Assembly (NCBI GenBank): GCA_000531095.1
Contig: HG799465.1
Span: forward strand, 767,573 to 831,572
From: Gemmata massiliana
Lineage (GTDB): Bacteria; Planctomycetota; Planctomycetia; Gemmatales; Gemmataceae
Length of the DNA: 64,000 bases
Direction: 5' to 3'
The notes below the pieces were generated by a model that did not search any database, was not told the DNA's origin, and was given only the letters and a program-made list of their open reading frames with translations. The position numbers and the translations under genes were made by a program. Positions 14,461 through 57,957 of this stretch are shown here, in pieces (position 1 is the stretch's first letter; each line of letters begins with the position of its first letter).

Positions 14461-14471
14461 TGTTTTGGTCC

Positions 14472-14589
14472 TTAGTCATTGGTCATTTGTCATTTTCCGC
14501 TCGTACCGGCCCATCTTAAAAAGCCGCAGCACAAGGCCGCGACGAACAAGATGAACCAGGAACCCGAGACGAAACGACCAATGACTATT
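14472..14589. repeat. Heptad inverted-repeat element, rplF/rplR spacer
   Basis: Plus-strand arm 14472-14492 is exactly three 7-base units (TTAGTCA, TTGGTCA, then TTTGTCA). The facing arm, read on the minus strand from 14589, opens with TAGTCAT, TGGTCGT and overlaps the rplF stop. TAGTCATTGGTC is identical in both arms. Confidence 0.8.
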
Positions 14590-17187: not shown

Positions 17188-17308
17188 TCAGCCTCAATTT
17201 CAGATTTCTGACAGATTTAGATCCAGGATTGATGGCCACGAACCACCCGGTATTGAGGGAGGTGCGGCCACAATGCAATCTCAAATCTCAAATCTGAAAT
17301 CACCAATC
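17188..17308. repeat. Heptad inverted-repeat element, rplN/rplX spacer
   Basis: The plus-strand arm from about 17188 contains units such as TCAGATT and GATTTAG. The facing arm, read on the minus strand from 17313, keeps strict 7-base register (TTTCAGA, TTTGAGA, then another TTTGAGA). The centre (about 17235-17270) is unrelated sequence. Confidence 0.8.
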
Positions 17309-17674
17309 TCAGACGACTTCGGCCGCCAGACTGAGGATCTTATTGAACTTCGCCCGGAGTTCGCGGGGAACCGCCCCGAAAATGCGGGTGCCGCGCGGGT
17401 TATTGTCGTTGTCGAGCAGAACGAGAGCATTGCGGTCGAACCGGACGTAGCTCCCGTCCTCGCGGCGAGTCGCGACGCGGGTCCGGACCACGACGCCCTT
17501 CACCACGTCGCCCTGCTTCACGTCGCCACCGGGCAGCGCCTTCTTCACGCTGGCCCGGATGATGTCCCCCAGGTACGCGACGCGGCGTTTGCTGCCGCCG
17601 AGTACCTGGATGCACATCACTTCCTTCGCCCCGGTGTTGTCGGCCACATCGAGGTAGGTATACATCTGGATCAT
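17309..17674 (-). CDS. rplN: 50S ribosomal protein L14
   Basis: 121 residues, normal length. L14 lies at the subunit interface. Starts [20 protein letters not shown] and has [20 protein letters not shown] and [13 protein letters not shown] near the C-terminus. Between rpsQ and rplX. Confidence 0.98.
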
Positions 17675-20527: not shown

Positions 20528-20639
20528 CAGTGTTCAGTTTCGGTGTTCAGTTTTCAGCATCCAGTTCGTGGCGTTCGATCAGTTCAAACTCACTTAGCGT
20601 GGCCGACTGAAACCGAACGCTCAAAACCGAACAGTCTCA
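20528..20639. repeat. Heptad inverted-repeat element, rpsS/rplV spacer
   Basis: Plus-strand arm from 20528 shows units CAGTGTT, CAGTTTC, then GGTGTTC, AGTTTTC. The minus-strand arm from 20638 reads TGTTCGG, TTTTGAG, then CGTTCGG, TTTCAGT. Both arms share the GTTCGG/TTTCAG flavour. Confidence 0.8.
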
Positions 20640-29384: not shown

Positions 29385-29708
29385 GTGACGGAACAACCAG
29401 TACCAATGACCCTCCGCGACGTTCAACACCGCATCCGTGCCCTGTTCGGGGCCAAGGACGGGAAGCGCGGCGTTGAGGGCACGTTCATGTGGTTCATGGA
29501 GGAGGTCGGCGAGCTGTCGGCCGCGCTCCGCGACCCGTCCGCGGACCCGGACAACCTCCGGCTGGAGTTCGCCGACGTGCTGGCGTGGCTCGCGACCCTC
29601 GCGAACATCGCGGGCGTGGACCTCGAAGACGCGATGCGGCAGAAGTACGGCGCCGGCTGTCCGAAGTGCCACGCGACACCCTGTGTGTGCGGCGCCGCCA
29701 AACCGTGA
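29385..29708 (+). CDS. MazG-like nucleotide pyrophosphohydrolase
   Basis: 107 residues from GTG (or 100 from ATG at 29406). The all-alpha NTP pyrophosphatase core is visible: EEVGE (E39, E40, E43) and EFADVLAW with D64, the Mg-binding set. Such enzymes hydrolyse nucleoside triphosphates to monophosphates. The C-terminus carries an unusual cysteine cluster (C92, C95, C100, C102) that could bind a metal. Stands alone ahead of the large membrane protein. Confidence 0.85.
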   Translation: MTEQPVPMTLRDVQHRIRALFGAKDGKRGVEGTFMWFMEEVGELSAALRDPSADPDNLRLEFADVLAWLATLANIAGVDLEDAMRQKYGAGCPKCHATPCVCGAAKP

Positions 29709-29760
29709 GTTTTTGCCCCGCCCTCGCAGCGCGGGGGCAAGAAAGAAGCCGAGACGATTC

Positions 29761-32136
29761 ATGCCAACGGCGGCCACCATCGGGCGCATTCTCGCGGTCG
29801 CGTTCACGTTCCTACTCATCCCCGCGCCCGCCGGCGCTAAAGACAGTGTGAAGATTACCGGCGCCTCGGTCGGGTTACCGACCGGGCGCGATGATGCGCA
29901 CGTGACGAAGTTCGGCGCGTGGGCGCCGGTCCACGTTCAACTCGAACCGCTCCGCGAAGTGACCGAGCCGGCGGAACTCGTGATCGAGTCCCCGGACGCG
30001 GACGAGGTTACGACCACGTTTGCCGTGCCCCTGAATCTCGCGACCGACCGCACGGCGATCGGCTACGTGCGCCCGGGCGGGGCCGCGAGCGAGGTCACCA
30101 TCACCGTGCGGGCCGTGAAGGGGGGAGCGCTCTCCGAACCGTTCCGCGTTCGCGTGCGCCCGCACGAGCCACTGCAATACGTCGTCCTCGCGCTCGGTGG
30201 CGCCCCAGCAGGATTCGAGCTTCCCAAGCCCGCGGGTGCCAGCGCAGAAACGCCCCCCCTTCGTGCGGGCCGCGTCGAACTCACGCACATCGCGAGCGTG
30301 GCCCAGTTGCCGGACCGGTGGTACGGCTACGAGGGCGCGGACCTCGCCGTTCTGAACACCGGCACGGCCCCCGACTTCCTGAAACAACTGTTCGGTGACG
30401 ACGCCACGGCTCAAAACAAGCAGAAGCGCGAGGCACTGATCGAGTGGGTGCGCCGCGGCGGACGTCTGGTCATTTCAGCCGGCTCGAACGCAGCGCTCGT
30501 GGCTCAACTTCCCGCACTGAAGCCGCTCCTCCCGTTCACAGTGAAGCCCGACGCACCAGCGCGCCAGGTCGATATCACTGGTCTCGTGTGGTCCGCGGGG
30601 TCGGGTCAGGCGAACACCGCGAGTGCGGCACTAACCGGGCGCGGGACGCGATTCGCGATGGCGAACTTGGTGCCGCAATCGGACCGGCCCGCGCGAGTGC
30701 TGATCCCGCCGAGTCAGTCCACCGAGGAGCGGCAGCCGATCGTGGCGCAAGCGGCGTTCGGTCTCGGGCGCGTCACGGTGATCGGCTTCGATCTGGACAG
30801 CGCGCCGTTCGCCGAGTTCTCCGCCCGGCCCGATTTCTGGGACTTCGTGCTCCGCGAATGCGGTGCGAACCGGGCCTCCAGTGGCGGCGACGGGAAACCG
30901 CGCCCGCCCGGGGTGGTGACCGAAGAAGAGGACTCGGCCACGGTCGCGATGCGCGTTCACAACGACACGTTCGACGGCGTTCCCGTGGTGTCGTTCGGCT
31001 GGGTCGCGCTGCTCATCGTGCTGTACATCCTGCTCATCGGTCCGGTCGAGTATTACGTTCTGAAGCGGTTCCTGGGCCGGCTCGAACTCACCTGGATCAC
31101 GTTCCCGATCATCGTGCTGACGGTCAGCGTGCTGACATACGTCTCCGCGTCCGCGGTCAAGGGACGTGACCTGAAGGTGAACAAGATCGACGTGGTGGAT
31201 GTGGACGCGCCGTCGAACCGCATTTACGGAACCACATGGTTCACGATCTTCAGCCCGCGGATCGACTCATACACGGTCGGCGTGACCCCGGGTACCGGTT
31301 GGGGAACCGACGAACAACCCGAAGGGACCGCGGTCGAGTCCATCGGCGCGCCACGGAGCGGGCGCGCGGGCATTACCCGCCGCAAGTACGCGGTGGAACC
31401 TACCGGTTTGGAGAACGTGCCCATTCAAATATGGTCCACGAAGGCGTTCTCCGCGAACTGGTCGTCCCCGTTAGACATCCCAGCGTCACAAGCGCCGACG
31501 GGCCAGACGCACCGCCGGCTCGAAGCGAACCTCGTCCACCCGCCGGGCGACCGCGCGAAGGTGCTCGGCAGTTTCGAGCACAACCTCCCGCTCCCGGAAC
31601 TGACGGAGTGCGTCGCGTTCTACGCGGGCCACGCCTACCCGCTCCCGGGCGAGGTAATCGTTCGCGGCGCCCCCGTGCGCCTGGTTCTCGATCAGGGTAC
31701 CCCCGCAACGCAGTGGCTCCAGAAGAACGCCGGACTTGATGCACTGCTCGCCCGCGACCCGGCCTACGCGCAGCGCCCCGTACAGAAGAACGTGCAGCGC
31801 CAGTCGCTGCAACAGACGGCGCTCGGCGGCCCGCTCCCGCTCATGGGGATGCTGTTCCACGAGGGGGCACTGAAGAACGACGAGGGCGTGATCGCGGGGA
31901 ACGCATCACTGCGGCGCCTGGATCAGTCGTGGCGGCTCGCACCCGACAACCGCGACGAAGTAATCGTCGTCGGCCGCGTCGCTCCGCCGCTCGGTTCGGC
32001 AGAAGACGTCCTCACCGGTCCGAACGCGCCCGCGAAACTGTGGCTGAAGGGCCTGCCGGGTTCCGGCGAGCGCCGACCGATCCCCGGCACCGCGCGACAA
32101 GAAACGTGGGTCCGATTTTACATCCCGGTCAAATAG
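29761..32136 (+). CDS. Large membrane protein, GldG/DUF4350-like
   Basis: 791 residues from ATG at 29761. Signal peptide (ILAVAFTFLLIPAPAGA), then a large outside domain. Residues about 195-345 look like a glutamine-amidotransferase-like fold without catalytic residues (LIEWVRRGGRLVISAGSNAA, FGLGRVTVIGFDLDSAPF). Two membrane helices lie at about 412-436 and 445-467 (WVALLIVLYILLIGPVEYY and WITFPIIVLTVSVLTYVSA), followed by a second outside domain. Proteins of this layout often accompany ABC ATPases, and one follows about 550 bases downstream. Exact function unknown. Confidence 0.7.
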   Translation: MPTAATIGRILAVAFTFLLIPAPAGAKDSVKITGASVGLPTGRDDAHVTKFGAWAPVHVQLEPLREVTEPAELVIESPDADEVTTTFAVPLNLATDRTAIGYVRPGGAASEVTITVRAVKGGALSEPFRVRVRPHEPLQYVVLALGGAPAGFELPKPAGASAETPPLRAGRVELTHIASVAQLPDRWYGYEGADLAVLNTGTAPDFLKQLFGDDATAQNKQKREALIEWVRRGGRLVISAGSNAALVAQLPALKPLLPFTVKPDAPARQVDITGLVWSAGSGQANTASAALTGRGTRFAMANLVPQSDRPARVLIPPSQSTEERQPIVAQAAFGLGRVTVIGFDLDSAPFAEFSARPDFWDFVLRECGANRASSGGDGKPRPPGVVTEEEDSATVAMRVHNDTFDGVPVVSFGWVALLIVLYILLIGPVEYYVLKRFLGRLELTWITFPIIVLTVSVLTYVSASAVKGRDLKVNKIDVVDVDAPSNRIYGTTWFTIFSPRIDSYTVGVTPGTGWGTDEQPEGTAVESIGAPRSGRAGITRRKYAVEPTGLENVPIQIWSTKAFSANWSSPLDIPASQAPTGQTHRRLEANLVHPPGDRAKVLGSFEHNLPLPELTECVAFYAGHAYPLPGEVIVRGAPVRLVLDQGTPATQWLQKNAGLDALLARDPAYAQRPVQKNVQRQSLQQTALGGPLPLMGMLFHEGALKNDEGVIAGNASLRRLDQSWRLAPDNRDEVIVVGRVAPPLGSAEDVLTGPNAPAKLWLKGLPGSGERRPIPGTARQETWVRFYIPVK

Positions 32137-32138
32137 TT

Positions 32139-32170
32139 CACTAGTTCTCAAGTTCCATGTTCCAAGTTGA
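32139..32170. repeat. Left heptad arm (GTTCCAA type) before the four-helix-bundle gene
   Basis: Plus-strand 7-base units AGTTCAC, TAGTTCT, then CAAGTTC, CATGTTC and CAAGTTG. Inverted relative to the arm at 32616-32677, so the two arms bracket the four-helix-bundle gene. Confidence 0.8.
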
Positions 32171-32188
32171 AATCACACCGGAGCGATC

Positions 32189-32587
32189 ATGCCCACGATC
32201 CGCCGACTTGAGGACATCGAAGCTTGGAAAAAAGCTCGTGAGTTGAACCGCGAGGTTTACCGAATCACGCGCGGAGAATCGTTCGCTCGTGACTTCGCTC
32301 TCCGCGATCAAATTCGCAGAGCAACAATTTCTGCGATGTCGAACATTGCGGAAGGGTACGAAAGGGACGGGAACGCGGAATTTCGACAGTTCCTTTACAT
32401 TGCAAAAGGGTCGGCGGGCGAGGTTCGCGCACAACTCTACGCGGCCCTCGACGTGGAATACATCGATCAAGAGACGTTCGAGCGCATCACGACACTGGCC
32501 CTCGATACGACGAGGCTTGTCCAGGGGTTCATTCGTTACCTCGACCAATCCGACCTCAAAGGTCGGAAGTTCGCAGAAGACGCCTAA
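32189..32587 (+). CDS. Four-helix-bundle (S23/IVP-type) protein
   Basis: 132 residues of the family first found in intervening sequences of 23S rRNA genes (TIGR02436-like). Hallmarks: EAWKKARELNREVYRITR, DFALRDQIRRATISAMSNIA followed by EGYER, FLYIAKGSAGEVRAQLYAAL and EETFERI-like QETFERITTLALDTTRLVQG. Function unknown; the family tends to appear in mobile or insertion-like settings. Here it lies alone between two facing arms of 7-base repeats, splitting the membrane protein from the ABC ATPase. Confidence 0.9.
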   Translation: MPTIRRLEDIEAWKKARELNREVYRITRGESFARDFALRDQIRRATISAMSNIAEGYERDGNAEFRQFLYIAKGSAGEVRAQLYAALDVEYIDQETFERITTLALDTTRLVQGFIRYLDQSDLKGRKFAEDA

Positions 32588-32615
32588 CCCCGAGCCAGCC
32601 AGAAGAGGCGTGCGG

Positions 32616-32677
32616 ACAGAAACTCGGAACTTGGAACTTTGGAACTCCAGAACTTGGAACTCCAGAACTTGGAACTC
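32616..32677. repeat. Right heptad arm (GTTCCAA type) after the four-helix-bundle gene
   Basis: Read on the minus strand: GAGTTCC, AAGTTCT, then GGAGTTC, CAAGTTC, about eight units in strict 7-base steps. The plus strand shows GGAACTTGGAACT variants. Ends just before the ABC ATPase start. Confidence 0.85.
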
Positions 32678-32682
32678 ACGCC

Positions 32683-33624
32683 ATGATCGAGTGCCGCGAC
32701 CTGACGAAGAAGTACGGCGAGTTGTTCGCGGTGGACCGGCTTTCGCTGAAGCTGGCGCCGGGCGACGTGTACGGGTTCATCGGGCCGAACGGGTCCGGGA
32801 AGACCACCACGATGCGGATGCTCGCCACGCTGCTGAACCCCAGTTGGGGCGAGGCGACCGTGTGCGGGCACTCGATCTACACCGGATCGAAGGAGATCCG
32901 CCGCGCGATCGGGTACATGCCGGACTTCTTCGGCGTGTACGACGACATGAAGGTGACCGAGTACCTGGAGTTCTTCGCCGCCGCGTACCGCATCCAGGGC
33001 GTAGAGCGCAAGAAGAAGGTCGAGCAGGTACTCGACTACGTCGACCTCGGGTACAAACGCGACGCGCTCGTGACGAGTCTGAGCCGCGGGATGACGCAGC
33101 GCCTCGGGCTCGCGCGCGTACTGCTCCACGACCCGCAGGTGCTCCTCCTCGACGAACCCGCGAGCGGCCTCGACCCCCGCGCCCGTATCGAGATGCGGGA
33201 ACTCATCAAGCGCCTGCGCCAGGAACAGAAGACGATTATGCTGTCGTCGCACATCCTCCCGGAGCTGGCCGAGATCTGTAACACGCTCGGCATCATCGAG
33301 CGCGGGAAGCTGATCTTCAACGGCACCGTCGAAGAGGCCGAGAACGAGGTCCGCAAGCTCCGGGGCGGGCGCGCGTTCCTGGTGTCCGTCGGTGAGCGCA
33401 ACGCCGAAGCCGCCAAGAAGTTAATCGCGTTTAAAGAGGTCGCGAGCGCGGAACTCGACCCGAAGGCCGGGGCTGTTCGCGTCGCACTCCGCGGGGACTA
33501 CGACGACGGGAGCTTCATCCCCGAGCGGCTCATCGCCGACCGGTTCAAGCTCCACAGCTTCCGGGAAGAAGAAATCAACATCGAGCACATCTTCCTCACC
33601 ATCACGAAGGGGATCACGAGCTAG
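32683..33624 (+). CDS. ABC transporter ATP-binding protein
   Basis: 313 residues, ABC-2/CcmA-like ATPase. Walker A GPNGSGKTTT (about residue 37), Q-loop replaced by IGYMPDFFGVYDD, signature LSRGMTQRLGLAR, Walker B VLLLDEPASGLDPRA, H-loop MLSSHILPE. A C-terminal domain of about 95 residues follows the nucleotide-binding domain. It energises export or membrane remodelling with a permease. No permease lies directly beside it; the 791-residue membrane protein upstream is the nearest partner. The next gene is galE. Confidence 0.92.
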   Translation: MIECRDLTKKYGELFAVDRLSLKLAPGDVYGFIGPNGSGKTTTMRMLATLLNPSWGEATVCGHSIYTGSKEIRRAIGYMPDFFGVYDDMKVTEYLEFFAAAYRIQGVERKKKVEQVLDYVDLGYKRDALVTSLSRGMTQRLGLARVLLHDPQVLLLDEPASGLDPRARIEMRELIKRLRQEQKTIMLSSHILPELAEICNTLGIIERGKLIFNGTVEEAENEVRKLRGGRAFLVSVGERNAEAAKKLIAFKEVASAELDPKAGAVRVALRGDYDDGSFIPERLIADRFKLHSFREEEINIEHIFLTITKGITS

Positions 33625-35969: not shown

Positions 35970-36071
35970 GAGTTCCAAGTTTCAAAGTTCCATGTTCCAA
36001 GTTGAACAACAAGAAGTAGCTACCCACTCGGGCGCTGCACTGAACTCTGAAACGTGGAACGTGGAACACTG
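35970..36071. repeat. Heptad inverted-repeat element (GTTCCAA type), moxR/DUF58 spacer
   Basis: Plus arm: GAGTTCC, AAGTTTC, then AAAGTTC, CATGTTC. Minus-strand arm from 36071: CAGTGTT, CCACGTT, then CCACGTT, TCAGAGT. About 35 bases of unrelated centre. Confidence 0.8.
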
Positions 36072-57865: not shown

Positions 57866-57957
57866 GAAGTTCCAAGTTCCAAGTTTCCGAGTTCCGAGCC
57901 AGAGAGGTACCGTGTTGTAACTCGGAACTTGGAACTTTGGAACTTGGAACTTCGCGG
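57866..57957. repeat. Heptad inverted-repeat element (GTTCCAA type) before the ligase
   Basis: Plus arm: GAAGTTC, CAAGTTC, then CAAGTTT, CCGAGTT. Minus arm from 57957: GAAGTTC, CAAGTTC, then CAAAGTT, CCAAGTT. The arms are nearly identical and close, giving a strong potential hairpin. Confidence 0.85.

Follow-up and report, generated by a model that had tools for sequence, protein, structure and literature searches.

Facing heptad arrays around S23/IVP genes: a probable intervening-sequence-type mobile cassette in spacers between protein genes

An S23/IVP gene between facing arms

The stretch of 64,000 nucleotides analysed here (the window) is part of contig C4 of genome G000 (9.27 Mb) and raises the question why a gene for a small four-helix-bundle protein should be framed, in the spacer between two protein genes, by facing arrays of heptanucleotides. 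The gene (positions 32189–32587, forward strand) encodes 132 amino acids and was assigned to the S23/IVP (23S rRNA-intervening sequence protein) family by its matches to PF05635 (113.7 bits, cut-off 33.8) and TIGR02436 (111.7, cut-off 24) and by an AlphaFold model. This model of the monomer (mean pLDDT 92.2) matches the four-helix-bundle fold of 2gsc and 2rld, with Z 18.8 and 1.2 Å over 114 residues for 2gsc_D and Z 16.4 for 2rld_B. We presume 2gsc to be the Xanthomonas S23 structure that is called a homopentameric toroid in the paper on the Coxiella intervening sequence (IVS) considered below.

The 5′ arm (32137–32169, forward strand) consists of AGTTCxx units, the first one directly after the upstream stop codon, and contains a single exact GTTCCAA (32159–32165). 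Facing units form the 3′ arm (32621–32677, reverse strand) with four exact copies of TTGGAAC (at 32631, 32639, 32654 and 32669). The spacing of the units alternates between 7 and 8 bp and is not strictly 7, and these arms are among the more degraded ones, falling below the strict periodicity cut-off. Alignment of one arm to the other nevertheless gave a score of 36, as compared with 33 for the 99th percentile of control pairs, which confirmed the two-armed, inward-facing heptad structure that a preliminary description of this DNA had reported around the S23/IVP gene. Exact GTTCCAA occurs 15 times in the window against 6.7 expected, a number attained in none of 100 shuffles.

The whole spacer, from the upstream stop to the downstream start, comprises 546 bases (32137–32682, forward strand). 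In its predicted RNA fold the arms are paired around the open reading frame (ORF), with a minimum free energy of −201.1 kcal/mol (z −3.87), and none of 100 shuffles equalled the native fold in stability. Both neighbours are co-directional with the S23 gene: the upstream host gene (29437–32136, forward strand; start uncertain), the C-terminal part of which served as site marker, and a downstream reading frame (32683–33624, forward strand), which we take from its sequence to encode an ABC-transporter-type ATPase.

Facing arrays around S23/IVP genes in other genomes

As a rule, S23/IVP genes are flanked by two arrays that face each other and consist of units of about 7 bp. A PF05635 profile search of 59 related genomes yielded 91 matches in 36 of them; a match at a contig end (G003:C370) was left out and two pieces on G022:C213 were merged, so that 89 loci were analysed. 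To obtain the arm score, the strip in front of each gene was locally aligned with the reverse-complemented strip behind it; as this score is symmetric, the scores of these 89 loci are unaffected by minus-strand loci that had not been turned. At 69 of the 89 loci the facing arms matched with a score that exceeded the 99th percentile of the controls (33). The median score was 45. Strips paired across different loci had a median of 18 (890 pairs, highest value 62), and 89 control positions taken within these loci one of 19 (highest value 35). A 7-bp period was detected at 58 loci versus 0–8 for each other lag from 4 to 12.

A wider set consisted of the best 80 of 374 relatives of the window protein in a collection of named genomes; most members belong to other phyla, one Planctomycetia-named record (L168) being included, and 79 of the 80 were used for arm scores. 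A score of at least 34 was reached by 51 of these 79 loci and by none of the 79 control positions; 44 of 790 mismatched pairs also reached it, the members sharing a unit near RGTTYNR (61 arrays). Period 7 was present in 50 of 79 loci as against 0–12 for each other lag from 4 to 13, and period 8 or 9 in some loci. When a stricter array score was applied to 167 of the 169 loci, a periodic array was recognised in at least one arm at 81 and in both arms at 27. Among these strict arrays, period 7 accounted for 37 of the 49 found upstream and for 45 of the 59 found downstream, with period 6, 8 or 9 in some sets. Loci dropped from the arm, array, Mantel or neighbour counts had short flanks, weak arrays or an unclear neighbour. 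Chance or low complexity as the source of the arms was ruled out by the mismatched-arm, elsewhere and lag controls.

Copies of the gene without heptad flanks, which according to the preliminary description would speak against a link of gene and arms, are not the rule, yet 20 of 89 loci in the related genomes and 28 of 79 in the wider set, about a quarter to a third, lie below the arm cut-offs. The score of locus L094 was 43 when cut at the profile match and 20 when cut at the open frame, the low value probably arising because the open frame continues into the 3′ arm. At a few loci (e.g. L155 and L309) the S23 gene lies between direct rather than facing heptad arrays. Array length varies broadly (medians 6.3 and 5.1 units), and this distribution is too broad for five units per arm to be used as proof of reading by a pentamer.

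S23 genes with arms are also present on cyanobacterial plasmids; in a plasmid sample of 20 records, from which 11 loci were read, 7 of the 11 had matching arms with a score of at least 34. Three S23 genes on cyanobacterial plasmids (L309, L312 and L314) are located inside CRISPR-Cas operons, twice between cas6 and cas4 and once between cas10 and a Cmr3-family gene. A search of a phage collection gave no S23 match.

Matching facing arms also bound loci of a second cargo, GxxExxY (PDDEXK_3, PF13366), for which the best 30 of 71 matches (L318–L347) were analysed. Within these best 30 of 71, 23 scored at least 34, compared with 46 of 870 mismatched pairs. Their arm units are longer and less regular, about 9–12 bp as judged by eye (e.g. 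CGCAGAGGG and CACGGATGAA), and the commonest strict period was 9, passing in only 3 of the 30. With strands assigned heuristically, the gene reads in the sense of both neighbours at 20 of 28 of these loci, against both at one and with mixed orientation at seven.

Arm sequence, gene content and orientation

The heptad unit varies by locus (AGTGGGC, AGTTTTC, AGTTGTT, AAGGATG, GGGGACA and others). Its relation to the S23 protein was evaluated at 115 of 167 loci by a permutation (Mantel) test of arm 5-mer similarity, from which the window locus was left out as its arms are too worn. Arm similarity increased with S23 protein similarity (rho 0.367, 0 of 999 permutations), and the correlation held without same-site pairs when permutation was confined to within the planctomycete and wider sets (0 of 999). 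For pairs composed of one planctomycete and one wider-set member, arm overlap rose from 0.036 at low to 0.165 at high S23 similarity. The unit thus differs between loci, is common to both arms of a locus and follows the S23 protein rather than the host genome; planctomycete S23 pairs from the same genome share no extra motif (0.038, 58 pairs) when compared with pairs from different genomes (0.053, 1712 pairs). The two arms of one locus were more alike than the same arm between species in 8 of 13 pairs only, and no strong claim is made for concerted arm evolution.

Orthologous sites with an S23 gene in at least two species numbered 13, and two of them illustrate exchange. At the first, G015 and G016 have AGTGGGC arms and G013 and G009 have TTGG-type arms; the S23 proteins of these two pairs are 26–29% identical, and the flanking DNA is 69–85% identical throughout. 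At the second, the arms are CGTTTCG in G013 and G015, GTTCCAA in G028 and of an ATTTGCG type in G027; here the S23 protein of G028 is 47–48% identical to those of G013 and G015, and that of G027 is 19–23% identical to the others. All eight loci at these two sites possess matching arms (scores 36–60). The comparison of orthologous loci proposed in the preliminary description also revealed gene-less versions: at a site occupied by S23 in G008 and G002, the aligned flanks are only 29 bp apart in G004 and 36 bp in G001. The same site harbours an unrelated hairpin in G000 and G012 and longer unrelated inserts in G015 and G016. Another copy, on contig C12 of G000, seems to have taken the place of the leader and the initial codons that the downstream gene has in G008, G012, G001, G004 and G002, with gene starts as assigned by us.

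The window site was compared in 19 genomes of the genus, and hairpins were sorted by eye. Gene and arms are present in G000, G002 and G016; heptad-like hairpins with differing units and without the gene occupy the site in G008, G012, G001, G006, G007, G009 and G013, and hairpins of other kinds in G003, G005, G015 and G018. Neither gene nor hairpin was found at this site in G011 and G017, and it was unreadable across in G004, G010 and G014. In G008, where the upstream protein segment is 98% identical to that of the window, AGTTCC arms occur without the gene; the outer bases of both arms are common to G000 and G008, and the inside is different. That the interior in G008 and G012 is a remnant of an S23 gene was considered and is not supported, with alignment scores of 31 for G012 (shuffle mean 25.5, maximum 44) and 33 for G008 (shuffle maximum 40). 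Hairpin families in the spacer 32137–32682 and its orthologues differ by species (CCCAGGGCAACGCCCTGGG type, GTTTAGCACCAGTCCCAACGGGGC type and CACGGATAAACACGGAT-like type), and this spacer is a hot spot for unrelated inserts. What differs at the compared sites is the whole spacer, which is swapped, sometimes together with edge codons of a host gene; these sites revealed neither an insertion event nor a target duplication nor an excised form.

At orthologous sites the gene and its arms vary jointly, and both gene-less sites and arm-only versions exist. Because the arms track S23, and unrelated or distant S23 genes at one site each come with their own matching arms, gene and arms behave as one cassette, the arms also occurring alone. 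The preliminary description had suggested that the heptad element is either a landing site or a mobile cassette. The latter proposal is supported, as arms surround other copies, are locus-specific and differ together with the gene. The data do not support a landing site for a single fixed heptad, since the heptads vary by locus and follow the S23 protein.

Arms without a gene are found in the window and beyond. The window contains two gene-less AGTTCCA hairpins, at 57866–57953 (loop of 22 bp) and at 35971–36067, and G008 has an unrelated hairpin in the same spacer as the latter. Worn 7-bp arrays without a gene are located at 14465–14494, 17277–17311 and 20528–20557 (TTGGTCA, AATCTCA and CAGTGTT) and are kept in G008. 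Twelve heptad sites of G000 were sought in G008, of which five were comparable; three are conserved and two differ, namely the window site and that at 35971. Outside the genus, AAGTTCCAAGTTC was detected in 7 of 40 other genomes, with more than one match only in G028, whose S23 locus L038 has GTTCCAA arms. AGTTCCA arrays are abundant in G004, G006 and G010 (19, 22 and 24 matches); in G006 and G010 the S23 matches are associated with arms of another type or with none. Such arrays persist in genus members without the matching S23 clade, and a pairing of arm type with the resident gene inside the genus consequently fails.

Arms independent of the gene, named beforehand as an observation that would count against a cassette, therefore do occur, at the window site of G008 and in G004, which has 19 matches to AAGTTCCAAGTTC and zero to PF05635. 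They fit non-autonomous copies and also leave room for the explanation that heptad hairpins are independent intergenic repeats, similar to the STRRs of cyanobacteria, into which S23 genes merely insert. Arm-only hairpins are indeed common (AAGTTCCAAGTTC was found in 15 of the 19 genus genomes), and the shared outer bases around different interiors in G000 and G008 are as expected for a landing site of this kind. We nevertheless regard it as unlikely: the arms follow S23 similarity, also across the planctomycete and wider sets, where one site contains unrelated S23 genes their matching arms are unrelated too, and inverted repeats of other kinds rarely have periodic arms (9 of 48 in 400 kb of genome).

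At 154 of 169 loci the strands of neighbouring genes were assigned not from annotation but by a reading-frame heuristic based on purine bias or on GC content at the codon positions. Both neighbours point in the same direction at 133 of the 154, and S23 is co-directional with them in 132 of these cases and runs against them in one. In annotated plasmid records it is in sense at 8 of 9 loci with both neighbours annotated; the exception (L316) is without arms. As unbiased DNA transposition would give about half sense, a bias of 132 to 1 implies that the element either inserts as or with RNA, or needs to be read from host transcripts to persist.

Such a bias would suit a retroelement in which S23 acts like the Avd protein of diversity-generating retroelements and the cassette RNA is copied by a reverse transcriptase in trans. 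The model of the window protein has an Avd-like fold as well (4dwl, Z 13.5 and 1.8 Å over 107 residues; 8ub8, Z 13.6), but a Z of about 13 does not decide the matter where helical bundles are concerned. Among the 59 related genomes, RVT_1 is about equally frequent in those with S23 (28 of 36) and those without (17 of 23), and G027, with five S23 matches, has none to RVT_1. In G000 the six RVT_1 matches are located on contigs C2, C5, C7 and C8, none of them on C4, the contig of the window. As S23 and RVT_1 do not co-occur, the reverse-transcriptase partner was rejected, and we consider an Avd-like retroelement quite unlikely.

The sense orientation within operon-like gene runs and the pairing of the arms in predicted RNA could likewise point to regulatory hairpins, attenuators or mRNA-stability elements, which S23 uses to control itself or its neighbours without being mobile. 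The sporadic distribution, the whole-spacer differences between close relatives and the presence, in many phyla, of S23 clade members sharing one arm type make this explanation very doubtful. A REPIN-like system, in which a RAYT-kind transposase moves the hairpins in trans with S23 as a passenger, would account for short hairpins with and without the gene and for several hairpin families in the same spacers, but is highly improbable, given that the structures listed as matches of the S23 model include S23 and Avd proteins and no transposase, and that the arm motifs follow S23.

A candidate cassette and its relation to known systems

We conclude that the feature is probably a small IVS-type mobile cassette in the spacer between protein genes, the S23 protein of which reads its own heptad arrays. 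After transcription, the arms would pair into a stem around the ORF, and RNase III could cut the insert from the host mRNA in the way published for the IVSs of 23S rRNA. The S23 protein would help its own cassette, and perhaps arm-only copies as well, to spread or to be maintained, and the host probably supplies the joining chemistry. S23 subunits arranged in a ring may bind their own arrays with about one subunit per unit; a loose analogy is the TRAP ring, which binds spaced triplets. Recognition of the arrays by such a ring, which we infer from the co-variation of unit and protein, would be the simplest reason for this co-variation.

The recurrence of the gene-arm arrangement around relatives in many phyla points to a mobile element of a kind that has received little notice and is related to the inserts of rRNA genes. 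More tentatively, S23/IVP proteins may define a very widespread class of sense-inserted, array-bounded elements, with 23S IVSs as the special case of rRNA genes, in which a ring protein reads a heptad "address" in both of its own arms and co-diversifies with it; nuclease-like cargo (GxxExxY, PF13366) would define a parallel class with longer, less regular units. We consider this generalisation possible rather than probable. S23/IVP proteins are widespread and, to our knowledge, have no known function, and we know of no maker for the tandem heptamers of bacterial spacers; the tracking of S23 by the arms across phyla offers both a common explanation that can be tested, in which a recognition code would link a ring protein to its own repeats. 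If this is true, 23S rRNA intervening sequences would be one of the habitats of a general class of elements.

REPs are palindromes on which a transposase acts, and the cyanobacterial STRR heptanucleotide repeats are, as here, tandem 7-bp units in spacers, for which we know of no gene partner. The present elements resemble REPIN/RAYT systems as short inverted-repeat elements of spacers with copies lacking the gene (PMC3116915), and differ from them by tandem short units that would be served by a bundle protein without known catalysis. The S23 protein has a four-helix-bundle fold similar to that of Avd (4dwl, 8ub7 and 8ub8), at a Z of about 13.5, which is near the level common for helical bundles; the identity is 11%, and no RVT_1 match lies on the window's contig. 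Marine Beggiatoaceae contain intergenic tandem TAACTGA heptamers, with 169 sets in one draft genome, which in contrast to the arms here are described as direct repeats, with one indirect repeat, and with a possible regulatory role (PMC4679880). No mention of repeats at the four helix bundle genes of Flavobacterium was found in PMC5524665, and a 16S insert is reported in PMC5041132. A published link of S23 genes with facing heptads was not found in the open-licence literature, which is weak evidence; the nearest report concerns heptamers beside S23p (PMC4990558).

This report describes the IVS in the 23S rRNA of Coxiella burnetii, which contains an S23p ORF, has a 28-bp terminal stem and is excised by RNase III; three tandem GACAGAT heptamers, the number of which varies between strains, precede the ORF (PMC4990558). 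According to the same source, S23p is probably not expressed in Coxiella, the Xanthomonas S23 structure is a homopentameric toroid, a mobile origin was proposed by Ralph and McClelland in 1993 (cited in PMC4990558), and an older proposal, also cited there, is that the ORF serves mobility. The window element and the IVS have in common the S23 ORF, complementary ends, tandem heptamers and a sporadic distribution (PMC4990558), the window ORF being closed by its ends as in the IVS according to the predicted arm pairing and the arm alignment (score 36). They differ in location: known IVSs reside in rRNA genes, whereas the S23 loci described here lie between protein genes in many phyla, and the window element is not inside an rRNA gene and is flanked by two protein genes. 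Facing arrays, locus-specific units or a link of unit and protein were not found in the Coxiella IVS account of PMC4990558. On the basis of the shared features, we take the window feature to be an intergenic form of the kind of element represented by the Coxiella IVS.
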